From an uncultured Pseudomonadota bacterium (lineage in GTDB: Bacteria; Myxococcota_A; UBA796; SXON01): a stretch of 64,000 nucleotides of DNA. The stretch lies in contig CAIMSU010000280.1 of assembly GCA_903844155.1 (NCBI GenBank), positions 1 to 64,000 on the forward strand. Reading direction: 5' to 3'. The translations under genes were made by a program, and so were the position numbers. Position 1 is the first letter of the stretch. The number at the start of each line of letters is the position of its first letter. Shown here one piece after another: positions 44,468 to 60,649 of this stretch. The notes under the pieces were generated by a model that saw nothing but the letters and a program-made list of their open reading frames with translations, was not told where the DNA came from and searched no databases.

Positions 44468-45066
44468 TCCGGTTCGACGCCGTCATTGTGCTCGGCAAGG
44501 AGATGCGACACGACCCCGAACGCGCGCTGCGCGAACTGCGGGCCAGGGCCGCGGCCGCCAGCGCCGTCAGCCGGCACACAGCGGCGACGATCGCCACGTT
44601 GGAAGCGCGCTTGAAGGGGCAGCACCGCACTGGAAGCGAGGTCGTCGCCGACCTGCTCTCGGAGCTTGGCGCAGACCCGTCGCGCGTGTATCGGGAGGAC
44701 CAGACCCGCTCGACCCGCGAGGAGGTGGCTCGTACGCTGGATCTGGCGATTTCCCGGCGATGGACCCGCATCCTCGTCGTCACCGCGCGCTACCACATCC
44801 CGCGCGCGCGTCGCCTGTACGCAGACGAGCTGGCGCGTCTACCAACCGCCCCCACCATCGCCGTCCACTGCCCTGCCGCGCTGCTCCGCGCCTGCAACCC
44901 CACGGAGCGCGCCTGGATCCTCGCCGGCGAACCGGACGCCGCGACCATGCAGCGGGAGTGCCGGGCGGAGCTGGTTCTCTCGACCCTCGCGCGCGTCTTG
45001 CGCCCCCTGCCCTTCCGCCGCGAGGTGGAGGTCTACGCCGGGGCCCGGCTCAGGGGCGCGGGCTGA
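44464..45066 (+). CDS. DUF218/YdcF-ElyC-like protein
   Basis: FDAVIVLGKEMRHD…GSEVVADLLSELGADPSRVYREDQTRSTREEVARTLDLA…RILVVTARYHIPRARRLY. Confidence 0.75.
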   Translation: MIRFDAVIVLGKEMRHDPERALRELRARAAAASAVSRHTAATIATLEARLKGQHRTGSEVVADLLSELGADPSRVYREDQTRSTREEVARTLDLAISRRWTRILVVTARYHIPRARRLYADELARLPTAPTIAVHCPAALLRACNPTERAWILAGEPDAATMQRECRAELVLSTLARVLRPLPFRREVEVYAGARLRGAG

Positions 45067-45096
45067 CCGGGGGCCAGCGCCGGCATCGGTGGCGTA

Positions 45097-46755
45097 CTAC
45101 GCCCGATCCCGCTCGATCGCTCGCGCCGCCTGCACGCCCGACCCAAGCGCCCCGGTGACCCCGTGGCCGGTCCGCGTGTTGGCGCCCGCGAAGTACAGGC
45201 CCGGGATCGGGCTGCGCGCGCCCGGCCGGTTCTGGAGGAATTGCGACGGCGTCGCCGCGAGGCCGTAGCCGCTCCCGGCGCTGGCCCCGGTGAACCGGCT
45301 GTGCGTGACCGGCGTGGCGCTCTCGATGTGAACGATCGCAGCCGTGGACCCCGGGAAAAGCCGCTCCAGCCTGCCGACGAGGTCGGCCTCGACCGTCGAC
45401 TTGTGGCGCTGGTAGGCCTCCTGCGCCCGGTAGCGGGGCGTGGCTACATCGCCTGGTATTACGCCCCAAACGTCCGACGCACCGGGCACCAGCGCCATCA
45501 CCTCTACCGTCTCCACGCCCGCCGGGGCGTGCCCGGGTGAATCGGGATCCTTCCGGGTCGCGCTGGTGATGTAGCAGCCGCGCACCGGCGGCGGGCCCTC
45601 GCCCGTGCCCACCCGCGCGAGGCCCTCCGCGTAGAGCGCGTCAAAATCATAGTGGTCGAACTGCCAATAGTTCGTCGCGCCCATCCCGAGCGACTTCAGG
45701 TCGGCCTTGACCGCGAGGCAGGTGAGGAAGATGGCACCCCCCATCTCCCAACCCGCCGCCTGTTCCCGCAACGCCGGAGCGACCGCCTCGTGCGGCAGCA
45801 GCTCGCCGATGGTGCGCTTCAAATCAGCGTTGCTGACGACCACGTCCGCAGCGAGAACGGCGGCAGGCTGCTCGCGCGGGTCATGGGGGCCACGCCAGTA
45901 CACCCCCGTCGCCCGTCCCGACTCGACCCGGATGCCGGTGACGGGGTGACGCAGGTGGATTGTGCCGCCTGCGCCCTCGATCACCGCGGCCAGCCGGTCC
46001 GCGATGACCTGCCCACCCCCGCGCGGGTAGTACGCGCCGCCAAGGTAGTGTGCGACCAGTCCGGCGTGCAGCATCAGGCTGACCTTGCCCGGCGGAAGCC
46101 CATAATCCCCGTTCTGCCCCGCGATGACCGCCCGGAGCCTGGGGTCGCGCGTGCAGGTGTCCAGGAACGCGCCGAGGGTCGCGCCCTTGTTCCACGCGGC
46201 GACCCGGGCCCGCGTCGCGGCCTCCCACGCCATGCGCCACCCCTTCGGCGCGTGCGGACGGCCCAGCACCCCGACCTCGCGCACGAGGCGAATATAGCGG
46301 TCAATACCGGACTTCTCGCCCGGAAAGGCGGCGACGAGGCGGTCGCGGTAGAGCTCGATGCTCGCGGGGATGCGAAAGCGCAGGTCCGGAAAGATGAGCT
46401 CGTCAAACCCGTCGGGATCGAGCGGGAGCCACTCCACGTCGACCCCGACCTCCGCGAGCATGGTCGGAATGCGGCCACCGGGCCCGCAGTCACCGACGTA
46501 GTGCAGGCCGATGTCGAAGGTGACGGGCCCACCAACGAAGCCCTCGCCGGCACGCAGGGACCGCCCGAACATCGTGCAGCACCCACCCGCGACGTAGTGG
46601 GCGTCGAGCACAGCGACCTTTCTTCCCGCCCGCGCCAGCCGAGCCGCCGTCATCAGCCCGCCGAGCCCGGCCCCGATGATGGCGACGTCCACGCGCTCCG
46701 GGACCGGGGTGGCGACGCGCGCGCGCGTGGAGGCGGTCGGGAGGGCGACGGACAT
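45097..46755 (-). CDS. FAD-dependent oxidoreductase, CrtI/retinol saturase (RetSat)-like
   Basis: VDVAIIGAGLGGLMTAARLARAGRKVAVLDAHYVAGGCCTMFGRS…FDIGLHYVGDCGPGG; C-term GLYFAGANTRTGHGVTGALGSGVQAARAI. Confidence 0.88.
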   Translation of the reverse strand: MSVALPTASTRARVATPVPERVDVAIIGAGLGGLMTAARLARAGRKVAVLDAHYVAGGCCTMFGRSLRAGEGFVGGPVTFDIGLHYVGDCGPGGRIPTMLAEVGVDVEWLPLDPDGFDELIFPDLRFRIPASIELYRDRLVAAFPGEKSGIDRYIRLVREVGVLGRPHAPKGWRMAWEAATRARVAAWNKGATLGAFLDTCTRDPRLRAVIAGQNGDYGLPPGKVSLMLHAGLVAHYLGGAYYPRGGGQVIADRLAAVIEGAGGTIHLRHPVTGIRVESGRATGVYWRGPHDPREQPAAVLAADVVVSNADLKRTIGELLPHEAVAPALREQAAGWEMGGAIFLTCLAVKADLKSLGMGATNYWQFDHYDFDALYAEGLARVGTGEGPPPVRGCYITSATRKDPDSPGHAPAGVETVEVMALVPGASDVWGVIPGDVATPRYRAQEAYQRHKSTVEADLVGRLERLFPGSTAAIVHIESATPVTHSRFTGASAGSGYGLAATPSQFLQNRPGARSPIPGLYFAGANTRTGHGVTGALGSGVQAARAIERDRA

Positions 46756-46763
46756 CCCGCATC

Positions 46764-46791
46764 GTAGCCCGCCGACCCGGCGCCGGGCTAC
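46764..46791. promoter_or_regulatory. Inverted repeat GTAGCCCG-N12-CGGGCTAC in a divergent promoter region
   Basis: 8-bp perfect arms between divergent starts 46755(-) and 46800(+). Confidence 0.35.
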
Positions 46792-46799
46792 TCTGTCGC

Positions 46800-47396
46800 A
46801 TGACCACGCTCCCCCTACAATGCGCCTGTGGCCAGCTTCGTGGCACCCTCGATGCCACCGCACAACCCGGTGCCCGAGCCGACTGCTACTGCGACGACTG
46901 CCAGGCCTACGCCCGTCACCTTGGCAGCCCCGGGATCACCAACGCGCATGGCGGCACCTCCGTCGTCCAGACCTGGCCCGCGCGCATCCATCTCACCGAA
47001 GGCGTCGATCAACTCGCGCTCGTCCGCCTTTCCGCGAAGGGCTTGCATCGGTGGTACGCCGGCTGTTGCCGCACGCCCGTCGCCAATACGACTGGCTCCG
47101 CCCGCGCCCCCTTCGCCGGCCTGATCCGCCAGGTCATCGTCACCGAAGAGGACCTCCTGGACGGGCTCTTCGGCCCAGCTCACGGCGTTCAAGGCCGGTT
47201 CGCCCGCGGGGGCTGCCCTCCCGGCGCCGTCCCGTCCGCCACCGTCTCCATCCTGGTCGCCGCGACGGGCATCCTCGCGCGGGGCTGGTGGGCGGGCGCG
47301 CACACCCCGTCGCCGTTCTTCCGGCCGGACGGAACCACGGTCATCCCGGCGCGGGTGCTGACGGTCGAGGAGCGGGCCGCAGCGTACGCGCGCTGA
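46800..47396 (+). CDS. DUF6151/GFA-like zinc-binding protein
   Basis: LQCACGQLRGTLDATAQPGARADCYCDDCQAYARHLG…HRWYAGCCRTPVANT. Confidence 0.7.
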   Translation: MTTLPLQCACGQLRGTLDATAQPGARADCYCDDCQAYARHLGSPGITNAHGGTSVVQTWPARIHLTEGVDQLALVRLSAKGLHRWYAGCCRTPVANTTGSARAPFAGLIRQVIVTEEDLLDGLFGPAHGVQGRFARGGCPPGAVPSATVSILVAATGILARGWWAGAHTPSPFFRPDGTTVIPARVLTVEERAAAYAR

Positions 47397-47400
47397 GCGG

Positions 47401-48645
47401 TTACGGCGCGTTCATCCCGGTCTTCCACCACAATTTGCACTTCACCGGCAAGTGCGCCCGGTCCAGCGCCTCGCAGGCGTTGGTGTACGTGCAGGCGCGG
47501 ATGGGCTCGGCCAGCCGCCCGCGGGCCTTCTCGGGCCAGTCCGGGTCGGCGAGCAGCCCCCGGGCCATGCCGACGAGGTCGAGATCCCCGCCTTGCAGCG
47601 CGGCTTCGGCGAGGTCGACGGTGTTGATCTTGCCCGCGCCGACAACGGGGGTGGTGAACCCGGCGGCGCGGATGGCGGCCCGGATCGCACGCGGGAGGGG
47701 GAGGTTGACGCCGTCTGGCGATTCGCGCGTTGGCATGCAGGTGAGGCCGCTGGGGCCGGTGTAGGGGTAGGCCGCAGCGCCGATCTTCGGGCGTTGGGCG
47801 TCCTCAAATCGACCGCCGCGGCTGACGGAGATCACGTCCACACCGGCTTGCGCGAAGGCGACCGCGATGCGTGCAGCCTCGTCGACGGTCGTGCCGCCGG
47901 GAACGTCGTCGCTGCCGAGCATGCGGAGGCCGACGGCGAAGCGCGGGCTGACCGCGGCGCGGACGGCCGAGATCGTCGCCAGCGGCAGATGAAGCCGGTT
48001 TTCGAAGGATCCGCCGTACAGGTCCGTTCTCCCGTTGGTCGCCGAGAGGAAGCTTGCCAGGGTGTAGGCGTGGGCGTAGTGCAGCTCCACGCCGTCGAAC
48101 CCGGCGGCCTCAGCCCGAACCGCCGCGCGCGCAAAGTACCCAGGAAGCGCCTCGATCTCCGTGACCGTCAGGTCCTCGATCTGCTGCCGGTACCCGAACG
48201 CGTAGTCCCGCCATTCCCGCGCCGTCAGCGTCGCCCGCAGCCGCTCCTCGTCCCAGCCCCCGCAGCCTGGATACTGCGCCTCCAACCTTGCCAACGCCCG
48301 CACCGGGTCCCGCCGCGCGATCTTCAGGAAGTCGATGATCTGCGGCACGATCCGGACCGGACCCGGCGCCACCGCCCGCATCTCCGCCACCAACGCCGCC
48401 AATGGCGCGATGTACCGGTCGTGCGAGAGCCTCAGCAGCGGCCCGGACGCCACGTCCCGCACGCCCATCGCCTCCAGCACGATCATCCCGGCGCCACCGC
48501 GCGCGTAGCGCACGTAGCGGTCGCGCACGGCGTCCGTCACCTCCCCCGATTCGTTGGACAGCCACGTGACCATCGCCGGCAGCCACACACGGTTCTCGAC
48601 CGCGATCGGCCCGAGCGCGAGCGGTGAAAAGAGGAGGCCGGACAT
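47401..48645 (-). CDS. NADH:flavin oxidoreductase / old yellow enzyme family
   Basis: LLFSPLALGPIAVENRVWLPAMVTWLS…GFDGVELHYAHAYTLASFLSATNGRTDLYGGSFENRLHLPL…VVGAGKINTVDLAEAALQGGDLDLVGMARGLLADPDWP. Confidence 0.93.
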   Translation of the reverse strand: MSGLLFSPLALGPIAVENRVWLPAMVTWLSNESGEVTDAVRDRYVRYARGGAGMIVLEAMGVRDVASGPLLRLSHDRYIAPLAALVAEMRAVAPGPVRIVPQIIDFLKIARRDPVRALARLEAQYPGCGGWDEERLRATLTAREWRDYAFGYRQQIEDLTVTEIEALPGYFARAAVRAEAAGFDGVELHYAHAYTLASFLSATNGRTDLYGGSFENRLHLPLATISAVRAAVSPRFAVGLRMLGSDDVPGGTTVDEAARIAVAFAQAGVDVISVSRGGRFEDAQRPKIGAAAYPYTGPSGLTCMPTRESPDGVNLPLPRAIRAAIRAAGFTTPVVGAGKINTVDLAEAALQGGDLDLVGMARGLLADPDWPEKARGRLAEPIRACTYTNACEALDRAHLPVKCKLWWKTGMNAP

Positions 48646-48675
48646 CGCCGCAACGTAGTACGGTTACCAAGGCCG

Positions 48676-49992
48676 ATGCTCGCCCACCTGCTGGCCTGGC
48701 GTGACACGACCGAGCGCCTGCGTCGAAACGCCACGCAGACGCGCGGTGATCTTCAGGCCGACCGCCTGACCCGGTTTCGCGCCCTCATCATGCACGCCGG
48801 CCAGCACTCCAGCTACTACGCCGCGATCCTGCGGGAACGGCACCTCGATCCCGGCACCTGCGTCCCGACCGACTTTCCCGTCCTGACCAAGCGCCTCGTC
48901 CGAGACCACTTGGACGCCATCGCCACCGACCCCCGCATCACCCGCGCCGCACTCGACGCCTTCCTCCGCGATAACCCGGCTCCCGAGGCCCGTTATCTCG
49001 ACGAGTACGTCGTGCTGCACTCCTCCGGGACGTCGGGCGAGGTGGGGACGATGGTTTACGCAGGCGTGGACTGGGTGCGGGCGACGGCCGGCCTCGCCCG
49101 AGCCACCAGTGCGGAGGAGCCGCGATTCGCGTTCCACGGCGCGTGCGGGGGTCACTTTGCGGGCGTGTCGTTCGCGCTCGCCGCGCAGCTCCACCCGTCG
49201 CCCCCCGAACTCCTGATCCTCGACGTCCAACGCCCCCTCCACGACGTCGTCAACTCCCTCAACGTCTTCCAGCCCGACATCCTCTCCGCCTACCCCTCCG
49301 GCGCCACCACGCTCGCGGGCGAGGCCGTTGCCGGCCGCCTGCACATCCGGCCGCGCGCCATTCATTGCTCCGGCGAGACGCTCACAACCGCGCAGCACGC
49401 CACGATCGAGGCTGCTTTTGGATGCCCGTGCCTCAACCTGTACGCCGCCACCGAGACCGGCCTGCTCGGCGCTTCCCGCTCCGGTGACCCGGGAATGACG
49501 CTGTTTGACGACGACGTCATCATCGAGCCCGCCGGCGACCACCTCCTCGTCACGCCGCTGCACAGCCGCGCGCTCCCGCTCATCCGATACCGGCTGGATG
49601 ACGAGGTTCGCTGGACCGATCACCGGAGCCCCTACGGCCCCTACCCGGTCGTGGAGCCGCTGGTCGGCCGCTCGGAGTGCGCGCCTCGATTCCGCGGGCT
49701 CGACGGCGCGCTGCACGCCATAAGCCCGCATGTCATCAACGAGATCCATGTGCCCCGCCTCGCGCGCTTCCAGTTCCGGCAAGTCGACGAGCGCAGCTTC
49801 CAGTTCGCCGTCTGCCTCGACCGCGACGCCACCGGCGCCACCGTCCTCGCGATCGAGGCCCGCCTGCACGCCATCCTCAGCGCCCAGGCGCTCGACCACG
49901 TCCGCTGCACGGTCACCGTCGTCGCCGACCTGCCTGTCGACCCCACCAGCGGCAAGTTCCGGCTGATCACCCTCGCTCAACCGCTTCCGTAG
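48676..49992 (+). CDS. Adenylate-forming enzyme (phenylacetate-CoA ligase/CoF390 synthetase-like)
   Basis: FPVLTKRLVRDHL…YVVLHSSGTSGEVGTMVY…LSAYPSGATTLAGEAV…AIHCSGETLTTAQHATIEAAFGCPCLNLYAATETGLLG…LPLIRYRLDDEVRW. Confidence 0.88.
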   Translation: MLAHLLAWRDTTERLRRNATQTRGDLQADRLTRFRALIMHAGQHSSYYAAILRERHLDPGTCVPTDFPVLTKRLVRDHLDAIATDPRITRAALDAFLRDNPAPEARYLDEYVVLHSSGTSGEVGTMVYAGVDWVRATAGLARATSAEEPRFAFHGACGGHFAGVSFALAAQLHPSPPELLILDVQRPLHDVVNSLNVFQPDILSAYPSGATTLAGEAVAGRLHIRPRAIHCSGETLTTAQHATIEAAFGCPCLNLYAATETGLLGASRSGDPGMTLFDDDVIIEPAGDHLLVTPLHSRALPLIRYRLDDEVRWTDHRSPYGPYPVVEPLVGRSECAPRFRGLDGALHAISPHVINEIHVPRLARFQFRQVDERSFQFAVCLDRDATGATVLAIEARLHAILSAQALDHVRCTVTVVADLPVDPTSGKFRLITLAQPLP

Positions 49993-50049
49993 CGACCAAC
50001 CCAGCCGCCGCCCGAGGATTCAAGGCACCAAAGTCGTTAGGCCGAACCG

Positions 50050-52116
50050 ATGCCCGTGCCCGCCTGCATCACCGGCGTCGGCATCGTCTCGGCGCTGGGA
50101 CGGAGCCTGGCGGCGACGACGGAGGCGCTCGACCGGGCCGTGGTCACAGGAATCCGGCCGATCACGCGCTTTGACACCGCCGCTTTCGGGGGCCGCGTGG
50201 CCGGCGAAGTGACCGGGGAGCTGGCCTCGAGGAGCAGCGCCGACCGCAGCATCGCCTTTGCGGTTCAGGCCGCTGCGGAGGCCTGGCGCGACGCCGGCCT
50301 GCCAACCGGACTCGACGTGCCCGTCGTCGTCGGCAGCAGCGCCGGACCGCACACCTTCGAGGACGCTTCCGACGCGCTTGAGGGGGTGCTCGCCTCCCGC
50401 GCGCGTCACGCCGCGGCCCACGTCGCTCTCCCAGACACCGTCGCTCGCTCGCTCGACCTGACCGGGCCGCGCTTTGCCCCGGCGACCGCGTGTGCCTCCG
50501 GAAACGTCGCCTTTGCCCTCGGGCTTGACCTCATCCGCATGGGCTGGCCGGTCGTGCTCGTGGGTGGCGCCGAGTCCATCTCCCGACGTCGCCTCGCGGG
50601 CTTCTTCGCGCTCGGGGCGCTCGCGAGCGGTCCTTGCGCGCCGTTCAGCACGCCAATCGGCATGACGCTCGGCGAAGGGGCTGCCTTTCTCGTCCTCGAA
50701 TCCGCGGCGCACGCCCACGCCCGCAGCGCGCGACCGCGCGGTTGGCTGCTCGGCTACGGGCTCTCCGCAGACGCCTGGCACGCCACAGCACCGGATCCGC
50801 GAGGCGCCGGCATGGCGCGGGCCATGCGCGCCGCGCTCGCGAACTCCAGCTTGAACCCCGAGGATGTCGACGCCTACGCGGCGCACGGCACCGGCACGGA
50901 GGCCAACGACGCCGCGGAATGGCAGTCACTGCAGACGGTCTACGGTGCGCGGATACCTGCGATCTTCGCCGTGAAAGGGGCGCTCGGGCATGCGTTCGGG
51001 GCGAGCGGACCGCAACAGGCGGTGTTCGGGTTGCTGGGGTGGGAGCGTGGCTGGCCGGGCACCGCCGGCTGGGCCGGACCGCGGACAGACGGGCCCGACG
51101 CGCCGCCGATCGTGGTCGCCGGAGCGACCCCGACCCCGCACAAAAGCACGTTCGTATCGCAGAACGCGGCGTTTGGTGGTGCGAACGCAAGCGTCGTCTT
51201 CGGACGGACCGCCCGAGGGGAAGCCGTCGCCGTCCAACCCGTCTACGTCGAGGCGGTCGGGCGCAGCCATCCCGTCGACGACGTGGCCGCGCTGCGGAGC
51301 GTGCTTCCCCGCGTCGACCCCCGCGGCCTCGACCGCCCGGCGGTGCTGCTCACGCTGGCGATCGGCCGGGCGTCACGGTCGGGGGCTTTCCCTGTTGGAA
51401 CCGGCCTGATCACCGGGGTCTCCCGTCGCCCGCTCGCCTCGGGCGACCAGTTTCGCGAGAGCCTCCGCGTCGCCGACGGCGCCCGTGGGTCGGCCAGCGC
51501 GTTCTCGCGCACCGTGATGAACGCGAGCACGGGTGCGGCCGCCCTCGCCCTCGGCCTACGCGGACCGGGTGCAACGCTCGCGGATGGGCCCGGCGCTGGC
51601 CTCCACGCGCTCGCGTGGGCCTGGTGGATGCTGGCGACGCGGCCCGAGATCGAAGCCCTCGTCGCCGCCGCCGTCGACGAACGCTCGCCCGACGAGGTGC
51701 CCGTCGACCCCGACGATCCCGAGGGGCCGCCGCTGGAACGGGCGCACGCGGAGCGCGCCGCCGCCCTGCTGCTCGGGCGTGCCGGAGGCGTTCGCATCGA
51801 CGGCGTCGGGTTTTCCGGGCCCGGGGCGCCGGCGGAGGCGCTGGCGAGGGCAGCGGGTGCGGCCCCGTTGGCACGGATCTACGGCACCGGCGTCGGCCCG
51901 ACGGGTCGGGCGGTCGAGGCGGCGCTGGCGAACCAGGCCGGATGCGCGCTGATGCCGTTCGTCGGAGCGTTTGGCGAGGCGACCGGCGCCTTGTCCATCT
52001 TCATCGCCGCGATTGAGGCGGGGGAGCCGGGGCGGAGCGCGGTGGTCGCGTGGTCGGCCCGGGCTGGTACGACGGTGGTGGTGTTCAGCCGTCACCCGGC
52101 AGATGGCCCGCCGTAA
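50050..52116 (+). CDS. Beta-ketoacyl synthase fused to a second KS-like (chain-length-factor-like) domain, 688 aa
   Basis: KS: ITGVGIVSALG…GPRFAPATACASGNVAFALGLD…AHGTGTEANDAAEW…KGALGHAFGASGPQQAV; second half RTVMNASTGAAALALGLRGPGATLADGPGAGLHALAWAWWML lacks the active-site Cys. Confidence 0.88.
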   Translation: MPVPACITGVGIVSALGRSLAATTEALDRAVVTGIRPITRFDTAAFGGRVAGEVTGELASRSSADRSIAFAVQAAAEAWRDAGLPTGLDVPVVVGSSAGPHTFEDASDALEGVLASRARHAAAHVALPDTVARSLDLTGPRFAPATACASGNVAFALGLDLIRMGWPVVLVGGAESISRRRLAGFFALGALASGPCAPFSTPIGMTLGEGAAFLVLESAAHAHARSARPRGWLLGYGLSADAWHATAPDPRGAGMARAMRAALANSSLNPEDVDAYAAHGTGTEANDAAEWQSLQTVYGARIPAIFAVKGALGHAFGASGPQQAVFGLLGWERGWPGTAGWAGPRTDGPDAPPIVVAGATPTPHKSTFVSQNAAFGGANASVVFGRTARGEAVAVQPVYVEAVGRSHPVDDVAALRSVLPRVDPRGLDRPAVLLTLAIGRASRSGAFPVGTGLITGVSRRPLASGDQFRESLRVADGARGSASAFSRTVMNASTGAAALALGLRGPGATLADGPGAGLHALAWAWWMLATRPEIEALVAAAVDERSPDEVPVDPDDPEGPPLERAHAERAAALLLGRAGGVRIDGVGFSGPGAPAEALARAAGAAPLARIYGTGVGPTGRAVEAALANQAGCALMPFVGAFGEATGALSIFIAAIEAGEPGRSAVVAWSARAGTTVVVFSRHPADGPP

Positions 52117-52546
52117 GCGTGCCTCGCGCGACCAGCGCGGCGCCGACGGAGGCCTCGACGCGGAAGCTGCGGACGCCCGCGAGCTGGGTCCCAAGCCACA
52201 CGCGGTACTCCAGGTGCGCCGGGGGCAGGACCGGCGCGATCAACCGGACGTTCACGGCTGCGAGCACCGAACGACCGCCTCGACCGGATGCCTCAGCTCC
52301 TGCCAACAGCGCGCTGAGCGCCGCGCATGCCTGCGCCAGCCCCTCGATCGTACAGACGCCCGGCCAGATCGGCTCGCCCGGAAAATGCCCAGCCACGATC
52401 GGATCGTCTGGTTCAACCTCCAGGCTCCCGTGGAGGAACGGCTCGTCCATGGACCAGGCGTGGATCCGTCCCAGGAACCGGAACGGCGCGCGATGGGGGA
52501 TCAGCCGCTCAACAGCCTCATCGCCCCAGTCCACCTGCTCGATCAT
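52085..52546 (-). CDS. FabZ/FabA-like 3-hydroxyacyl-ACP dehydratase (hotdog)
   Basis: LIPHRAPFRFLGRIHAW…IVAGHFPGEPIWPGVCTIEGLAQACA. Confidence 0.85.
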   Translation of the reverse strand: MIEQVDWGDEAVERLIPHRAPFRFLGRIHAWSMDEPFLHGSLEVEPDDPIVAGHFPGEPIWPGVCTIEGLAQACAALSALLAGAEASGRGGRSVLAAVNVRLIAPVLPPAHLEYRVWLGTQLAGVRSFRVEASVGAALVARGTLTAGHLPGDG

Positions 52547-53895
52547 CGCGCCCTCACGAGTCGGGCAGCACGCGCACCGGAGTGCATCACCGCGGTCTGG
52601 CCCGGACCCGGCGCGACCCAGGCCCCCGCGAGCGTCAGGCCAGGAATCGGCGTTCGAGCGGGCATCGGGGCGCCCGCTCCCATCCCCATCGCCGCGCCCC
52701 CCGGGCTCCCCGTGTAGTACGCCCAGGTGCCCGGGTGGGCGAGCGTCGAGACGGCCACGCAGCGCTCCGCACCGGGCAACAACCCCGTCAGCACGCCCAT
52801 CAACCGCGCCTTCGCCGCCTGCCTAAAATCGCCGTCGTCATCCCCGGACGGCGCCGCGGCAACCGCGCAGGCGACCGTCCGACCCGGGCCCGCCCAGGCG
52901 TCGTCCCCGACGCTCGGGATCGTCACCGAGCATTGCCCGTTCGCGTCGACAACGCGGGTCTCGTACGCCTGCCCGGCGGTGTGGTCCCCGTCCAGCCCGA
53001 CAAACAGCCGGTAGAACGAGCCGGACAGCGGGAGTCCCGCGATCCGCGTTCGCCACGCGTCAACCCCCTCCGCCGTCGCCAGCAGCTCCGCCAGCCTCGG
53101 CAACGGGAGCCCGGCGATGACGTCCGACGTCGCGATCACCTCGCCCCCATCGACCTCCACGCCCTCGACCCCTCGCCCACCGACGCGGATCCCGGTGACC
53201 GCCGCGGCCACGCGAACCTCGCCGCCTCCCGCCTCGATCCGGTCGACCAGCGCCGTCGTCAGGGCCCGGCTCCCGCCCCGCAACCGCCACCCGCCGAGCA
53301 CGTGGTACGCGTGGAAAAGCATCAGGAACGTGCCCGCGGGACAGGTGCGCGGGCTTCGTCCCACGTATCCAGTAATTCCGCCGACAACCTCGATCAGCAC
53401 CGGCGAACGTAGCCACTCGTTCAGGCGATCGGCGGCCGTCCCGACGACCCGGAGCGGCGCTCCCGCGTAGACCGCGGCGTGGGCCTCCGCGGCGGCCCGA
53501 AACAGCTCGCGCAAGCCGGCTGCATCCCCGGGAAAGCGCGTGGCGAGCAGATCGTAGAGGGCGTCACCGTTCTGCGGGAGGAGCAGGTCGGCGCCGGGGA
53601 CGAGGTCGCGGCGCAGGAAGGGGTCGCGGTAGAGGTCGAGGGCGTCGCTGATGCCGAGGGCGTCGAGGAGCGGGCGGTTGGCCTGGCCGGGGCCGACGGC
53701 GTCGAGGTGATGGAGCGAGGCGTCAAAAGTGAAGCCGGCGCGCTCGAAGGTCACGGCGAAACCGCCAGGTTCGGTGTGCCGTTCGAGCACGATCACGCGG
53801 TCGCCGGCGCGGGTGAGGAGCGCGGCGGCTGCGAGGCCACCGAGGCCAGCGCCGATGACGACGATGGGGGGCCGAGACGGGCGCTGCGCAAACAC
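52543..53895 (-). CDS. CrtI-like FAD-dependent dehydrogenase (phytoene desaturase family)
   Basis: PPIVVIGAGLGGLAAAALLTRAGDRVIVLERHTEPGGFAVTFERAGFTFDASLHHLDAVGPG; C-term PGLTLAGAWVAPGPGQTAVMHSGARAARLV. Confidence 0.9.
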   Translation of the reverse strand: MFAQRPSRPPIVVIGAGLGGLAAAALLTRAGDRVIVLERHTEPGGFAVTFERAGFTFDASLHHLDAVGPGQANRPLLDALGISDALDLYRDPFLRRDLVPGADLLLPQNGDALYDLLATRFPGDAAGLRELFRAAAEAHAAVYAGAPLRVVGTAADRLNEWLRSPVLIEVVGGITGYVGRSPRTCPAGTFLMLFHAYHVLGGWRLRGGSRALTTALVDRIEAGGGEVRVAAAVTGIRVGGRGVEGVEVDGGEVIATSDVIAGLPLPRLAELLATAEGVDAWRTRIAGLPLSGSFYRLFVGLDGDHTAGQAYETRVVDANGQCSVTIPSVGDDAWAGPGRTVACAVAAAPSGDDDGDFRQAAKARLMGVLTGLLPGAERCVAVSTLAHPGTWAYYTGSPGGAAMGMGAGAPMPARTPIPGLTLAGAWVAPGPGQTAVMHSGARAARLVRAR

Positions 53896-54082
53896 TTCGC
53901 CGGCATCTATCTGGAATCACGTGGATCCGAAAGCGTGTCGGCCCCCACGCGGCCGTTCGCCGCACGAACCGTGCCGGCTGGCGTCTTCGCCGGCTGGCGG
54001 GGTTCGTGGCCTCGGGACGGCAGAAAATAACCGCCGATGCGGGCGGGAGGTTCGCCGAGCGCCGGCATCGGCGACGCGCACC

Positions 54083-55102
54083 CTAAGCGTACGGGTCGGG
54101 CAGGCTCGCGGGGTCCGGCGGGCGGCGGGAGGGCCGGACGAGCAGGCTGCGATTCAGCAGTAAGGGCGCCGACACCGTCATCACCGGCCCGGAGGGCACG
54201 CTCAGGACGTCGAGGCCGGGGTGCGCGAGACGCAGCGGCAACAGCCCCATGCCGATGCTGCCGCCCGACGCTCCAAACCACGGCGCCGTCTGGAGGACCT
54301 CGCCGACGACGTCGCCGTCGAGCCGAAGTGCGTCCCCCGCGGCCAAGCCGAGCGGACCGCGCAGCCCCACCGTGCGTCGCAGCCCGCCCGCTTCGCGCCT
54401 CGCCGCCAGCGCCGGCATGCCGAGCACGTCGCCCTTCCGGCGGCTCAGCCGCGCCTGGAGCTGAAGCTCAAGCGGCGTGAAGCGCGCAGCGAATGGAGCG
54501 TGGATGTCAAAGAACCAGTTTTCAAGCGCACAGTGGGTGAGTGCGGCTGGATCGACGCGCACGACATCGCCGAGCTGGCTGAGCGTGGCATCGACCGCGT
54601 CGTGCGGCACCAGCAGCGTGTAGCCGTACTCGCCCGTGCGACCCGCCCGAACGCAGCGCACGTCGCCGTCCAGGCGCGCGAGCGAGAGGTAGGGCATGCC
54701 GCCGATCCCCCGTTCCCCGACCGCCTCGAGCGCCTCCCAGGCGTACGGCCCGTCGACGGCAATCGCGGCGTGGGTCGCGGCCAATCCGGCAAGCTGGACG
54801 TCCTCGCCGTCCTCGCAGAAGCTGCCGAGGTGTGCCAGGAGGGCGGGTTCGTCCAGCCCTTCCACAAAAAGCCAGAAGTCCGCGTCCTCGGCGCCGACCA
54901 GCACATCGGCCAGCACGCTGCCATCGGCCCGAAGCAGCAGGGTCGCGCGGAGCTGGGCCTCCCGGAGGTGCAATTCGCAGGGGAGGACGCGGTCGAGAAA
55001 CGCCCAGGCGCCTTCGCCCGTCACCCGCACGACCGCCGGGGATGGACGGGAGACGGCAGCGCGCTCCCGGATCGCGCGGACCTGGCGTTGGAGCTCCGTC
55101 AT
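54083..55102 (-). CDS. GcvT/YgfZ-like (aminomethyltransferase folate-binding family) protein
   Basis: VVRVTGEGAWAFLDRVLPCELHLREAQLRATLLLRADGSVLADVLV…VRAGRTGEYGYTLLVPHD…ENWFFDIHAPFAARFTPLELQLQARLSRRKGDVLG. Confidence 0.75.
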   Translation of the reverse strand: MTELQRQVRAIRERAAVSRPSPAVVRVTGEGAWAFLDRVLPCELHLREAQLRATLLLRADGSVLADVLVGAEDADFWLFVEGLDEPALLAHLGSFCEDGEDVQLAGLAATHAAIAVDGPYAWEALEAVGERGIGGMPYLSLARLDGDVRCVRAGRTGEYGYTLLVPHDAVDATLSQLGDVVRVDPAALTHCALENWFFDIHAPFAARFTPLELQLQARLSRRKGDVLGMPALAARREAGGLRRTVGLRGPLGLAAGDALRLDGDVVGEVLQTAPWFGASGGSIGMGLLPLRLAHPGLDVLSVPSGPVMTVSAPLLLNRSLLVRPSRRPPDPASLPDPYA

Positions 55103-55395
55103 CAGGCCCCCGCCGCGAGCAGCCGGTCGACGAGCGTGTTCAGGGTACGCATCGCCCGGGCACTTTCGGCCGGGGACGCATCGCGGTCGATGACGATCAC
55201 GCCAAAGCCCGCCTCCAGGCGAACGATCAGGTCGAGCGCGTCGATCGAATCGAGCCGCAGGCCACCGCCGAACAGCGGCGCGTCCGGATCCAGCTCGTCC
55301 GGCTCCTGGGCGAGCTGCAACACGTCGATGACGACGGCGCGGACCTCGTCCAGGAGCGCCTCACGCCGGGCAAGGCCCGGTTGCCACAGGGTCAT
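55102..55395 (-). CDS. Acyl carrier protein
   Basis: ALLDEVRAVVIDVLQLAQEPDELDPDAPLFGGGLRLDSIDALDLIVRLEAGFGV (DSxD phosphopantetheine-site serine). Confidence 0.9.
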   Translation of the reverse strand: MTLWQPGLARREALLDEVRAVVIDVLQLAQEPDELDPDAPLFGGGLRLDSIDALDLIVRLEAGFGVIVIDRDASPAESARAMRTLNTLVDRLLAAGA

Positions 55396-55399
55396 GGCG

Positions 55400-56359
55400 C
55401 TACGTCGGTACCGGAAGCGCGGTTTCCGACTCGGCCGAGCCGTGCTCAGGCGGCACGGAGCTCTTGCCGACGAGGAAGATGATGAGCCCGGTCAGAATCA
55501 CGATCAACGCTGGAATCCCGACGAAGACGACCGCGGTCGCGAGTCCGTTCGTGCCGCCGGCCGCGGTCAACACGATGGCGGCCGTCAGGAAGACGCCGCC
55601 GGCAACGCCCATCATGATGAGCCCGGCCCTCTCCAGCCGTTTGCCGTGACGCGCAGCTTCGGCGTCCTGATCGTCGCCGCCCCCGTCCGCCCCGTCCGCC
55701 GCCAACCCCATCGCCTGTCCGGTCGCGGCGCTCCGAACCTCCGCCGGGTCGAGTCCCGCAGCGCGCCACCGCTCATCGACGGTACCGACCGCCATCGCCG
55801 TCTCCGCCTCGCTGGACTGGTGACGCATCCGCCAATGCACGGCCTCAACGTGGTGGTCGAGCGCCTCCACCCAGTTGGCCGGGATGCCGAAGGCCTCGGC
55901 AGCCTCCGCGAGCTTGACCCGGAGGTCGAGGCCGATCTCCGGGCGCTCACGCAGCGTGGCGTCGATCCCCGACAACGGGTGCTCGTTCTTGAGGAAGTGG
56001 GAGAGCCTGCCGCCGATGAGGCCAGCCCGCGGCGCCTCCTCTGCCAGCAGCGCCTGCGCTTCGGGGTGCGCCTGCGCGTGGACGTCCAGCTCCCGGAACG
56101 CGGCGGTGGCCGCAAACGTCGCCATGAGCTGGGGAATCGTGTCGGCCGCGAGCCCTTTGGAGGCGAGGTAGCCCTGCATCTCCGCGGGGACGCGGCGGGC
56201 GCGGATTGCGGCGAGCTGGGCGCGGATGTGGTTCACACGCGCTGGCACATCGCGCTCATCGCGCTGATCGATGCCGGTGACGGGCGCGGCGAGCGCTGGG
56301 CCGGACGCCGCCAGTCCGAGCGCACCGCCGATGAGGGTCAGGATTTCACGACGTTGCAT
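55400..56359 (-). CDS. Hypothetical exported protein with two C-terminal TM segments
   Basis: MQRREILTLIGGALGLAASGPALAAP signal; LIMMGVAGGVFLTAAIVLTA / AVVFVGIPALIVILTGLIIFLVG. Confidence 0.6.
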   Translation of the reverse strand: MQRREILTLIGGALGLAASGPALAAPVTGIDQRDERDVPARVNHIRAQLAAIRARRVPAEMQGYLASKGLAADTIPQLMATFAATAAFRELDVHAQAHPEAQALLAEEAPRAGLIGGRLSHFLKNEHPLSGIDATLRERPEIGLDLRVKLAEAAEAFGIPANWVEALDHHVEAVHWRMRHQSSEAETAMAVGTVDERWRAAGLDPAEVRSAATGQAMGLAADGADGGGDDQDAEAARHGKRLERAGLIMMGVAGGVFLTAAIVLTAAGGTNGLATAVVFVGIPALIVILTGLIIFLVGKSSVPPEHGSAESETALPVPT

Positions 56360-56420
56360 GGATTCCTCTGATTGGGCTATGTATCCGGTGGTGGACCTCC
56401 GGCGCGCTTACGCTCACCAA

Positions 56421-57485
56421 ATGCCAAGCCGCGTCAGAGAGCCCTGGAACCCCGCCCGGCTCGCCGACCTCGCCCAGGCCCGAGCACCCGGCACCCTCGC
56501 GGACGTAGACGCCCTCGACATCCTCTGCCGCTCGCTGCGCGACGACGCCCGTCTCACCCCCCTCGCTGCGCGGCCCATCGAGCAGCTCATCGTCTCTGGC
56601 CTCGTCGCCCGGCTGCGGCTGGACGCCCTGACGGCCGACGACGAGGCTCCGAAAACCCCTCCCATCATCGTCTGCGGCTTGCCTCGCTCCGGCACCACCT
56701 TCCTGCACCGCCTCCTCGCCCTCGCCCCGGCAGCCCGCGTCGTGCCCTTCTGGGAGCTGCATTCTCCCGTTGCCGGCGTTGGACCGGACCATCGCCGGAC
56801 CGATGCCCGCGCAGCGCTCGGCTGGCTGGCCCGGTCAGACGCCGCGCCGGGTCGACCGATGCGCGACGATCTACCGGACGAATGCGGCTTGCTCCTTCGC
56901 CTCGCCGCTCACTCGCAGCTCTACTGGGCCCTCGCTCCGGTTCACGGCTACCTCGACTGGCTCCTCCATGCGGACCCCGCGCCCGCCTACGCCGCCTACC
57001 GCCGGGTACTCACCCACCTCGAACGCCAGCAACCCGGCCGCCTCACGCTGAAGTACCCGGCCCACGCCCTGCACCTCGACGTGCTCACCGCGGCCCTCCC
57101 CGGCGCACGCCTGGTCGTGATGCACCGCGATCCCGACGAGGTCGTGCCCAGCAGCCATCGCCTTGTTTGCCAGTTCCACGCACGACTAAGTCCGGATGCC
57201 GACGCCCAGCGAAGCATCCAGGGAAACACGCGACGTCTCGCCTTGCAAGCCGAGCGCACCGCGACGAATGCCGGGTCCGCGGCCGTCCACATCGGGCACC
57301 GGGCGCTGATGGCCGACCCCGTCGCGGTGGTCGAGCGCGTGCACGCGCGACTGGGGTTGGAGCCGCCCGACCGCGCGAAACTGACAGCGTTCATCGCGGA
57401 ACATCCAAGGCCTCCACGAACGACCCAGACCCGCATCACACCTGGCTTCGAGGCCTACCGCGACCGGTTCGCACCGTTGTTTTGA
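56421..57485 (+). CDS. Sulfotransferase family protein
   Basis: PPIIVCGLPRSGTTFLHRLLALAPAARVVPFWEL (PAPS 5'-phosphosulfate loop); ARLVVMHRDPDEVVPSSHRL. Confidence 0.9.
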   Translation: MPSRVREPWNPARLADLAQARAPGTLADVDALDILCRSLRDDARLTPLAARPIEQLIVSGLVARLRLDALTADDEAPKTPPIIVCGLPRSGTTFLHRLLALAPAARVVPFWELHSPVAGVGPDHRRTDARAALGWLARSDAAPGRPMRDDLPDECGLLLRLAAHSQLYWALAPVHGYLDWLLHADPAPAYAAYRRVLTHLERQQPGRLTLKYPAHALHLDVLTAALPGARLVVMHRDPDEVVPSSHRLVCQFHARLSPDADAQRSIQGNTRRLALQAERTATNAGSAAVHIGHRALMADPVAVVERVHARLGLEPPDRAKLTAFIAEHPRPPRTTQTRITPGFEAYRDRFAPLF

Positions 57486-57502
57486 GCCGGTTAGTCACCC
57501 CC

Positions 57503-57832
57503 ATGCCTTCGCGTGTCTTTGTGGCCCATCGCCTGCTCGTGGCGGGGTCGTTCGCCCTCGTGGCCGGCTGCGGCGTCTCCCAGTCGACGTTTCAGTCCGA
57601 TTACGCTGCCAAATACTGCGCGCTCCAGTTCCAGTGTGAGGACACCGCCGCGCTCTCCGCGCTCGGCTGGACCGACGAGGCCGCCTGCGTCTCGGACCTG
57701 TCGGCGGTGGACACGGCCTCCACGTCGTACGACAAGAAGGCCGCCAAGGACTGTCTCACCGCGCTCGACGCCGTGACCTGCGACGATCTGGCCTCCAACA
57801 CCTTCCCCGCGATCTGCCTGCAAGTGCAGTGA
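57503..57832 (+). CDS. Small Cys-containing lipoprotein
   Basis: MPSRVFVAHRLLVAGSFALVAGCGVSQ lipobox; conserved-looking Cys spacing. Confidence 0.6.
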   Translation: MPSRVFVAHRLLVAGSFALVAGCGVSQSTFQSDYAAKYCALQFQCEDTAALSALGWTDEAACVSDLSAVDTASTSYDKKAAKDCLTALDAVTCDDLASNTFPAICLQVQ

Positions 57833-57851
57833 TCGCCTCCACGGAGCCTTG

Positions 57852-58181
57852 ATGCCGTCCGCCCACCTGTTCCTGGCCGCTTCCCTGCTCACCTGCCTTG
57901 CCGCCTGCGCGCCGGATGTGCCCGGCGCGTGTGCCAGCTACGTCGACGCGCTCAACACCTGCACAGCGACCGCGAACGGCGTGACGGACGGCAGCACGGA
58001 CGCGGACCCCACCATCGCCTGCGCCGCCTGGGACAAGGTCTCCGGCTCTGCCGTCAAGCCCTCCGTCGACTACCTGGACTGCCTGCAACAGGCCTACGCC
58101 GAGGCTCAGGCCGCTGGGACTTGTTCGACCACCGAAGCCGAGGCCGCCATCGACCTCTCCGGCTGTGTGCCGCCAACCTGA
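57852..58181 (+). CDS. Small Cys-containing lipoprotein
   Basis: MPSAHLFLAASLLTCLAACAPDVPG lipobox. Confidence 0.6.
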   Translation: MPSAHLFLAASLLTCLAACAPDVPGACASYVDALNTCTATANGVTDGSTDADPTIACAAWDKVSGSAVKPSVDYLDCLQQAYAEAQAAGTCSTTEAEAAIDLSGCVPPT

Positions 58182-58247
58182 CCAACCGGCGCCCCTGCGC
58201 GTTATGCGGCGCCCCCCTCTCGCCCCTCGCCTTTCGGAGTCCGCCGC

Positions 58248-59501
58248 ATGCCCCTCGTCCCCGTCCACGGTGGTGGTCCCCTCACCAACCGAATCCTCCC
58301 GTTGACCGCCAAGAAGGCGCTGCTCGCCGATGCGCTTGGCATGACGAAGATCGCCGTGACGGACGCGGACCTTTCGGTGGTGTACCGCATCGCCGACGGC
58401 ACCCTGTCGCCGCTGCAGGGGTTCATGGACGAAGCGACCTACAACCGGGTGCTCGACCAGAAGAACATCGTCGGGCACGACGGCAAGGCCTACGCTTGGA
58501 CGATCCCGCTCTCCCTGGCGATCACGGACGCCGAGGCGCAGCGCCTCAAGCCGGGCGTCCGCGCGGCGCTGGTGAACGCGAACAACGAGGTGTTCGGCAC
58601 CATCACCGTTTCGAGCGTGTTCGCCTGGGACAAGAAGCGCTTTGTCGAGAAGGTCTACGGCACCTCCCGCCTGGACCACCCCGGCGCCCGGATCGTGACG
58701 GACGACGCGCGCACCACGCTCGTGGGCGGCGAGATCAGCGTACTCCCGGCGCGGCGCAATCCGGACTACGGCGACCTGCTGAATTCGCCCGCGCGAACCC
58801 GGCAGCTCATCGAGGAGCGTGGCTGGGAGGCGGCGCTCGCGTTCCAGACGCGCAACCCGCTGCACCGCGCGCACGAGTACGCCCTGGTTTACGGCGTCGA
58901 GCAGCTCACCCGGTCCGGAAAATACGCCGGCGTCGTGCTGAACCCGCTCGTCGGCCAGCTCAAGAGCGACGATGTGGACGCTGCCACTCGCGTTCGGACC
59001 TACCGCATCCTTCGTGACGGGCGGCTGCTCGGGCAGGGCGACAGCGACACAGCGCTCTGGGCGGACGTCGGGCACGACCTGAACGACGTTTTTGAGCTCG
59101 TCTGCCTGGACATGAAGATGTTCTACGGCGGGCCCTCCGAGGCGGTGATGCACTCGATCTACCGTCAGAACCACGGCTTTTCCCACATCGTCATCGGCAG
59201 GAAGCACGCGGACGCGCCCTACGACGACAAGGCCGCGATCTGGGGCGATTTTGACGCCCAGCAGATCTTCGAGAACCTCCCCGGCATCCTCCACACGCAG
59301 CCCGTAAAGGTCGGTTTTGCCGCCTACTACGACCACCTCGGCCGCGTGGACCTGACGGAGCGCCACCCCGGCGTCGCCCCCTACAGCATCTCCGGCACGA
59401 AGCTCCGCGAGCAGCTCGTTGCCGGCGAGCGGCCAGACGCGCGCATCATCCGCGGCGAGGTCGCGGACGTGCTCTCCGCGGCGTACCGCGCGAAGGGGTA
59501 G
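58248..59501 (+). CDS. sat: Sulfate adenylyltransferase (ATP sulfurylase)
   Basis: ADGTLSPLQGFMDEATYNRVL…LAFQTRNPLHRAHEYAL…NPLVGQLKSDDVDA…HIVIGRKHADAPYDDKAAIWGDFDAQQIF…ISGTKLREQL. Confidence 0.95.
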   Translation: MPLVPVHGGGPLTNRILPLTAKKALLADALGMTKIAVTDADLSVVYRIADGTLSPLQGFMDEATYNRVLDQKNIVGHDGKAYAWTIPLSLAITDAEAQRLKPGVRAALVNANNEVFGTITVSSVFAWDKKRFVEKVYGTSRLDHPGARIVTDDARTTLVGGEISVLPARRNPDYGDLLNSPARTRQLIEERGWEAALAFQTRNPLHRAHEYALVYGVEQLTRSGKYAGVVLNPLVGQLKSDDVDAATRVRTYRILRDGRLLGQGDSDTALWADVGHDLNDVFELVCLDMKMFYGGPSEAVMHSIYRQNHGFSHIVIGRKHADAPYDDKAAIWGDFDAQQIFENLPGILHTQPVKVGFAAYYDHLGRVDLTERHPGVAPYSISGTKLREQLVAGERPDARIIRGEVADVLSAAYRAKG

Positions 59502-59505
59502 CGTC

Positions 59506-59826
59506 TTGTTCATCATCCTTGCGATCCTGCTGATGCCCTCGCTGTTCGGCGGCGTCGGCACGGGCATGATGATCATGGAGACGCACCCGCACCCCGAAAA
59601 CGTGCGCTACGTCGAGCTCCTGGACGTGATCCTCGGGCTCACCTGGATCCCGGTCGCCGGCATTGCGGCCTGGCTCAGGTCCCGGGGCGGAAGCATCAAG
59701 GTGAACCCGAAGGCGAGCCTCAAGACGCTGCCCACTACCGTGATCCGGCTGTTCGCGTGGGGTACGCCGATCGCGTTTCTGGTGGGGTTGGCTTCGGGGA
59801 TCTGGTTGGCGGGCGACCCGGGATAA
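59506..59826 (+). CDS. Small membrane protein (2-3 TM), TTG start
   Basis: LFIILAILLMPSLFGGVGTGMM…VELLDVILGLTWIPVAGIAAWL…GTPIAFLVGLASGIWLAGDPG. Confidence 0.5.
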   Translation: MFIILAILLMPSLFGGVGTGMMIMETHPHPENVRYVELLDVILGLTWIPVAGIAAWLRSRGGSIKVNPKASLKTLPTTVIRLFAWGTPIAFLVGLASGIWLAGDPG

Positions 59827-59836
59827 CCAGCCACCG

Positions 59837-60649
59837 ATGGCCGGCGTCTACACCCTGCGAATCCCGCGCCACGCCTGCACGCCGCGTGACACGGCGCGCG
59901 CGGGCGACCTCTGGCGGCTGGTCCAGGACGCGGCCGTGAACGACGCTGCGGACCGGGGCTGGCCGCCGAGCCGGTTTCGTGCGCTGGGGACCGGCTTTGT
60001 GGTTCGCGAGATGCACGCGGTGCACGAGCGGGAGGCGATGTACGGCGAGGACCTGCGCATCACCACGCAGATCGCCAACCACCGGCGCGAGGTGCTGATG
60101 CGCCGGGAGACGCAGATCGAGGGGGTGATGCGGGCGACGGCGGACTGGGTGCACGTCGGACGGGAGGGCGGGCCGACGAGGGCATCGCCGGAGCTGATTG
60201 GGGCGTTCCCGGTGGACGCCTCCGCCCCGGAGTTACCCGAGTTCGAACCTGGGACGTCGCCGGGTAGCGTGGCCTTGCCTGACTTCGCGTTTTCGCCGTG
60301 GTGGACCGAGATGGACCCGCTCGCGCACACCAATCACCCCCGCTATGTCGACTGGGCGGACGAGGTCCTTGCGCGCGCGCTGCACGCCTGCGGCCTCGAT
60401 CCCATCGGTGTCGTGCCGTTCGCCGAGCGGGTACGCTTCCGACTTGGCGCGCGGGCGACGGACACGGTGACCGTCTCTGGGACGACAGCGTTTCTGACGC
60501 TTGCGGATGGGCGACCTGCGCTCAGCTGCCAGCTTCGCGCGAGGCGACAGGGCCAGCGGGGCGATGAGGTCGTCGCCGACCTGGAGATCGTCCGCGCTCA
60601 CCTCGACGACGCAGTGCCGGCGCGGCTCGTGGAGGCGCTGCGTGGGTGA
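59837..60649 (+). CDS. Acyl-ACP thioesterase-like (double hotdog)
   Basis: YTLRIPRHACTPRDTARAGDLWRLVQDAAVNDAADRGWPP…GTGFVVREMHAVHEREAMYGEDLRITTQI…MDPLAHTNHPRYVDWADEVL. Confidence 0.8.
   Translation: MAGVYTLRIPRHACTPRDTARAGDLWRLVQDAAVNDAADRGWPPSRFRALGTGFVVREMHAVHEREAMYGEDLRITTQIANHRREVLMRRETQIEGVMRATADWVHVGREGGPTRASPELIGAFPVDASAPELPEFEPGTSPGSVALPDFAFSPWWTEMDPLAHTNHPRYVDWADEVLARALHACGLDPIGVVPFAERVRFRLGARATDTVTVSGTTAFLTLADGRPALSCQLRARRQGQRGDEVVADLEIVRAHLDDAVPARLVEALRG

Follow-up and report, generated by a model that had tools for sequence, protein, structure and literature searches.

The 64,000-nucleotide stretch of DNA analyzed here (the window) carries a gene cluster of the type II fatty acid/polyketide synthase kind, in which a homolog of the aminomethyltransferase GcvT is paired with a discrete acyl carrier protein (ACP). 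This pairing recurs phylum-wide and is more than chance. According to an explanation to which, taken as a whole, we give about an even chance, the window locus is a derived copy of an operon distributed across the Myxococcota.

Gene Organization of the Locus

The cluster core consists of the genes for an AMP ligase, a fusion of a ketosynthase (KS) with a chain-length-factor-like half (KS-CLF), a FabZ-type dehydratase (DH), the CrtI-like enzyme CrtI_B, the GcvT homolog, the ACP, a Tat-signal membrane protein and a sulfotransferase (Table 1). All gene types named in the initial annotation of this region were present where it had placed them. The genes at 52085-56359 had also been described as tightly packed; this held for most of them, with overlaps of 4 bp (DH/CrtI_B) and 1 bp (GcvT/ACP) and a spacing of 4 bp between the ACP and membrane protein genes, but not for CrtI_B and GcvT, which are separated by 187 bp.

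Table 1. Features of the cluster and its flanks in the window.
Feature	Position	Strand	Remarks
CrtI-like enzyme CrtI_A	45097-46863	-	upstream flanking gene
OYE homolog	47401-48645	-	flanking gene
Cluster extent (8.97 kb)	48634..57603		empty site between OYE and ATP-sulfurylase side in sister species (G088, contig C64)
Adenylate-forming ligase, PaaK/F390-synthetase-like	48676..49992	+	NCBIfam DVU_1553 family, E=6.4e-16, below cut-off
KS-CLF fusion: FabF-like ketosynthase half and shortened KS-like half	50050..52116	+	
FabZ-type dehydratase (DH)	52085..52546	-	Pfam FabA, E=2e-14
CrtI-like FAD oxidoreductase CrtI_B	52543..53895	-	
Inner sub-block CrtI_B-GcvT-ACP-membrane protein	52549..56360		contiguous on G088 contig C52
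GcvT homolog, aminomethyltransferase fold (GCV_T)	54083..55102	-	
ACP, DSI phosphopantetheine motif	55102..55395	-	
Tat-signal-like (RR motif) membrane protein	55400..56359	-	C-terminal hydrophobic hairpin
Sulfotransfer_3 sulfotransferase	56372..57485	+	Pfam E=2.9e-30; start uncertain, ORF open from 56271
ATP sulfurylase	58248-59501	+	flanking gene
4HBT/acyl-ACP thioesterase	59837-60649	+	flanking gene

In the KS half of the fusion, Cys148, His279, Lys309 and His314 were invariant across 19 relatives. The second half, which the initial annotation had taken for a KS-like domain, is indeed KS-like by profile (best E=2e-21), matched the actinorhodin CLF (1tqy_B, E=2e-14) and is without the active-site Cys, like a chain length factor. 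An active KS and a Cys-less CLF, the pair that defines the highly reducing type II PKS/FAS of the KS-CLF type, were thus both found. The identity of the KS-CLF was 70-71% in a sister species (genome G088) and 33-40% across the phylum. The ligase, for which no Pfam match was obtained, is a putative enzyme of starter-unit or acid activation; its gene also lies directly upstream of KS-CLF in the sister species (locus L039; 59-63% identity), and no ligase was seen at the other loci of the relatives, the linkage being confined to the genus. CrtI_B is a putative desaturase, isomerase or saturase of the chain. The membrane protein was 56% identical in G088 and about 15-22% elsewhere, where its gene mostly adjoins KS-CLF; its structure model is all-helical, with an N terminus and a C-terminal part of low confidence, and a fold search with this model gave no match.

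Neither a KR nor a malonyl transferase was found among the ORFs scanned at the window locus, in agreement with the initial annotation. The window operon carries the ACP and the DH, whereas the operons of the relatives mostly have all four, and because the KR and the malonyl transferase are absent, the window copy is not self-sufficient. FabG-like KR candidates are present in the window genome. A dedicated malonyl transferase was not found there, and the malonyl transferase of locus L060, used as query, matched only AT domains inside very large ORFs.

Conservation of the Operon in Myxococcota

When GcvT homologs were searched for and their neighborhoods compared, operon-type GcvT of the main clade was found in 26 of 379 Myxococcota genomes. 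The conserved gene order is membrane protein, KS-CLF, ACP, GcvT, KR, malonyl transferase and DH, sometimes with a propeller lipoprotein next. The ACP gene lies directly upstream of the GcvT gene in the window, in each of the 25 main-clade loci for which the upstream stretch is available, and also in 9 loci of an outlying clade. In two genomes (L058 and L061) ACP and GcvT form a single ORF, and the structure model of the fusion had a pLDDT of 93.5. One locus, L075, has no ACP, and the tree places its GcvT with canonical GcvT. KS-CLF is found directly upstream in 20 loci, and the KR, malonyl transferase and DH genes occur in about 21 loci each (the first two, and the Trp-halogenase-like FAD neighbor, were assigned by Pfam). 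Matches to the KS-CLF fusion of at least 488 bits were obtained in 21 genomes, all of which have operon-type GcvT; given that the census KS profile was built from these same loci, the co-occurrence counts as support and not as an independent test.

Around this core the neighbors vary. FAD enzymes stand near many copies of the GcvT homolog, and a CrtI-like gene lies directly downstream of it in L041, L043, L054 and L060. Several copies of the outlying clade stand beside a second ACP and a PlsC-type acyltransferase, the latter in L066 and L070 only, and L070 also has a Ketoacyl-synt_2 protein; these are genes of the kind found in polyene-lipid clusters. Conservation of the neighborhood among relatives was the check that the initial annotation had proposed for its cluster. 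The core is kept across the phylum, which supports a type II cluster of the FAS/PKS-like kind that counts a GcvT-like gene among its core members, and the KS and ACP genes are not mere duplicates of FabF and AcpP.

The GcvT Homolog

In addition to the operon GcvT homolog, the window genome encodes a YgfZ-like protein and a canonical GcvT. In the tree, the proteins of the operon type group together in a single clade, distinct from the glycine-cleavage GcvT and the YgfZ of the same genomes (support 0.98). Asp66, Arg152 and Glu158 were present in 36/36 operon-type proteins, and position 194 is Glu in 27 and Asp in 9; these residues align with the folate site of GcvT. By our reading of the alignment, Asp66 would be the position that is mutated in the PDB entries titled ETD97N and D552A. 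The T. maritima GcvT was the best PDB match both in sequence (E=1.9e-44) and in fold (E=9e-27). GcvT and its homolog have in common the fold, the folate-site Asp/Arg/Glu and a swinging-arm carrier partner, which is the ACP here. The homolog differs from GcvT in its separate clade, in an identity of about 25% and in its scores against the curated NCBIfam GcvT models, which lie far below the cut-offs (60 bits against 459, 56 against 300 and 46 against 236). A tblastn search of plasmids gave distant matches only (24-28% identity).

A non-catalytic role of the homolog, as an ACP docking or scaffold protein, or a YgfZ-like role as a helper for iron-sulfur proteins, appears unlikely. The low identity to true GcvT would fit such a role, and Trp122 and Arg218, which are specific to the operon clade, hint at an altered one. 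On the other hand, Asp66, Arg152 and Glu158 are invariant as in GcvT, whereas the YgfZ-like proteins of the same genomes lack this folate-site pattern and branch elsewhere, and no iron-sulfur protein was recognized in the core operon. Assignment to YgfZ was rejected on the separate clade and the differing residues.

In dimethylglycine and sarcosine oxidases, the GcvT domain captures one-carbon units on tetrahydrofolate, and the homolog might likewise scavenge formaldehyde or an iminium from a partner flavoenzyme (the CrtI-like or halogenase-like FAD enzyme). After GcvT itself, dimethylglycine dehydrogenase/oxidase and sarcosine oxidase are among the nearest folds in the PDB, and the FAD enzymes near many copies could supply such a partner, but most core operons, L047-L049 among them, are without a CrtI-like or halogenase-like flavoenzyme, and the ACP is always adjacent; we regard this scavenger role as quite unlikely. 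The constancy of the ACP-GcvT pairing, together with the two fusions, suggests instead that the ACP, or the cargo it carries, is what the homolog acts on.

Extent of the Cluster and Comparison with a Sister Species

The contig C64 of the sister species is collinear with the window at 38-64 kb except for two gaps. The first corresponds to 45.05-47.40 kb of the window (CrtI_A and a DUF6151 gene), and the second to 48.63-57.60 kb, where the OYE side and the lipoprotein/ATP-sulfurylase side are only ~150 bp apart in G088. Because of this empty site the cluster is placed at ~48.63-57.60 kb. The boundaries of the initial annotation, 45097-60649, are therefore too wide, and its 15.5-kb extent was discarded. 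The OYE, ATP-sulfurylase and thioesterase genes adjoin one another in G088, with ~150 bp in place of the 8.97 kb of the window, so that these genes and CrtI_A are flanking genes and not members. As candidate members, CrtI_A, OYE, ATP sulfurylase and thioesterase were also rejected on their lack of linkage to the KS and GcvT genes in the relatives checked, where present.

In G088 the cluster is held elsewhere and is split: contig C6 carries the ligase, KS-CLF, DH and sulfotransferase genes, and contig C52 carries the membrane protein, ACP, GcvT and CrtI_B genes. The outer sub-block on C6 has only ~120 bp where the window has the inner sub-block. That the two halves lie on different contigs was counted against our preferred explanation.

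The sulfonation genes named in the initial annotation fared differently. The sulfotransferase was retained as a member, being linked to the cluster in 4 genomes of the order (the window, L039, L054 and L060), while the ATP sulfurylase was unlinked in the relatives checked. The Sulfotransfer_3 domain scored 106.6 bits against a gathering cut-off of 27, which identifies the domain of PAPS-dependent sulfotransferases and makes the activity putative; a PDB search with the protein gave no match. At L060, CysNC and CysD, the enzymes of PAPS synthesis, are encoded ~2 kb past the malonyl transferase gene, with one gene between, on the opposite strand.

The cluster DNA is ~70-72% identical between the window and G088. 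The dS values were 0.74-0.99 for the cluster genes and 0.76-1.00 for the flanking OYE and ATP-sulfurylase genes, and dN/dS was about 0.16-0.28 for KS, GcvT, ACP, DH and CrtI_B and about 0.16-0.42 across all cluster genes measured, the sulfotransferase value being left out of both comparisons. The cluster genes are under purifying selection. Recent horizontal gain is not favored, given that the dS of the cluster genes is in line with that of the flanking genes. Because of the DNA identity and the similar dS, the cluster is probably no new acquisition but was already present in the common ancestor of the window genome and G088, with a later relocation and a splitting or joining of its parts. The only repeat found at the insertion site was a 10-base match, and no sign of a mobile element was seen.

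These values also bear on the possibility that the window holds a duplicated FAS locus that is decaying, or serves housekeeping, and has no specific function. The absence of the KR and malonyl transferase, and a gene order that is rearranged with respect to the other relatives, would agree with decay; the intact ORFs, the invariant active sites, the low dN/dS and the retention of both sub-blocks in the sister species make it highly improbable.

Comparison with Known Systems

The closest known kinds are the polyene-type type II PKS, the ladderane candidate clusters and the cispentacin enzymes. With the polyene-type (aryl polyene) PKS, the operon has in common a KS and a CLF, a discrete ACP, KR, DH and malonyl transferase, with no enoyl reductase seen in the core. 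The KS half matched the structures 6kxd, which we take to be the ishigamide KS-CLF, and 6qsp, presumably an APE-type KS. Peculiar to the operon are the KS and CLF in one short polypeptide, the GcvT homolog paired with the ACP and the Tat-signal membrane protein. The PUFA synthase PfaC also holds KS and CLF in one chain; unlike PfaC, the fusion described here stands outside any multidomain megasynthase. No starter ammonia lyase or MMPL exporter was recognized in the core, and none of the aryl polyene features (ammonia lyase/aromatic starter, KR, MMPL exporter, acyltransferase) was found among the ORFs scanned at the locus.

With the anammox ladderane FASII, the window cluster has in common FabF paralogs, ACP, FabZ and CrtI/phytoene-desaturase-like enzymes; CrtI-like enzymes occur in the ladderane candidate clusters according to the ladderane paper, from which the terms "glycine cleavage" and "aminomethyl" are absent (PMC2649909). 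Radical SAM proteins, a feature of the ladderane clusters, had no match in those ORFs that were scanned in the window between 39 and 64 kb. The likeness to the cispentacin type II PKS-like enzymes consists of weak matches below cut-off (AmcB 20 against 80, AmcE 33 against 140 and AmcF 185 against 325 bits), and the term "glycine cleavage" is absent from the cispentacin paper (PMC10698177).

It is very doubtful that the locus is an ordinary aryl-polyene, ladderane-like or cispentacin-like cluster in which GcvT is incidental. In its favor, the KS and the ACP gave scores with polyene-type and AmcF/AmcB models, CrtI-like enzymes are shared with the ladderane candidates, and a PlsC-type acyltransferase and a Ketoacyl-synt_2 protein occur in outlying relatives. 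Against this, GcvT and ACP are the most constant pair, the cispentacin models remain far below cut-off, and the ORFs scanned yielded no radical SAM, ammonia lyase or MMPL gene.

Proposed Function

The reading that we prefer, with the chances for and against it evenly poised, is that of a highly reducing (polyene-type) type II synthase. One-carbon chemistry that depends on folate would alter or shorten the chain carried by its ACP, and in this taxonomic order the chain would also be sulfated. The KS-CLF would add malonyl units to the chain on the ACP. KR and DH would render this chain (poly)unsaturated, the KR and malonyl transferase of the window copy being supplied from elsewhere; the unsaturation is proposed because no dedicated enoyl reductase was seen in the core operon. 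For the GcvT homolog, the phosphopantetheine arm of the ACP would take the part that the lipoyl arm of the H-protein plays for true GcvT, and the homolog would transfer a one-carbon unit from tetrahydrofolate to the chain or in the opposite direction. In this order the CrtI-like flavoenzyme would adjust double bonds and the sulfotransferase would sulfate the product, destined probably for the cell envelope; both enzymes would be order-level additions. We infer the polyene-type chain, the folate-dependent step and its direction, the sulfation, the destination and the product from these gene sets. The folate step in particular is deduced from family membership and linkage, and the GcvT fold may serve here without catalysis.

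To our knowledge, carbon branches in fatty acids and polyketides are made via S-adenosylmethionine, branched extender or starter units, or HMG-type enzymes. We propose tentatively, at somewhat less than even odds, that the GcvT-family enzyme catalyzes tetrahydrofolate-dependent one-carbon addition, removal or branching on ACP-held acyl chains, and that this reaction is central to a conserved lipid-type pathway of Myxococcota, which would yield a new class of chains. The enzyme function is possibly new. The operon recurs over many families of a phylum noted for natural products, yet a literature search found no description of it, nor of a GcvT homolog in such an operon, and it offers a clean and testable target. 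If the proposal is true, a folate enzyme paired with the ACP, and twice fused to it, would represent a novel means by which such chains are edited.

Upstream insert, further KS clusters and the membrane protein

Relative to the collinear contig of the sister species (G088:C64), a second insert was found at positions 45051-47400 of the window, and a 76% orthologue of its CrtI/RetSat-like FAD gene was located in G088 on C95, away from C64.

Genes within the second insert
Gene	Window position
CrtI/RetSat-like FAD gene	45097-46863
DUF6151/GFA-like gene	46800-47396

Additional KS clusters were observed in the same genome as the window (G000), namely L096 on C234, with at least two KS-type genes, and L097 on C159, with a consecutive DH, CrtI-like gene and KS.

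The Tat-signal-like membrane protein (window 55400-56359) and its relatives form a fast-evolving family (alignment A3), the genes of which usually neighbor the KS-CLF. The structure of the window protein was predicted to be all-helical, and no PDB match was found for this model.

Chromosomal setting and variants of the operon

The operon was adjoined by a Trp-halogenase-like FAD enzyme in five loci (L050, L057, L058, L059 and L061), its gene usually lying on the opposite strand; the Pfam check was made on the L057 copy. In L046, from the same-family genome G215, the ACP, GcvT, KR, malonyl transferase and DH were present, and an adjacent KS-CLF was absent. In L047-L049 (G371, G294 and G340, large genomes of one genus), a leucyl-tRNA synthetase gene adjoins the operon, which thus occupies a stable position on the chromosome.
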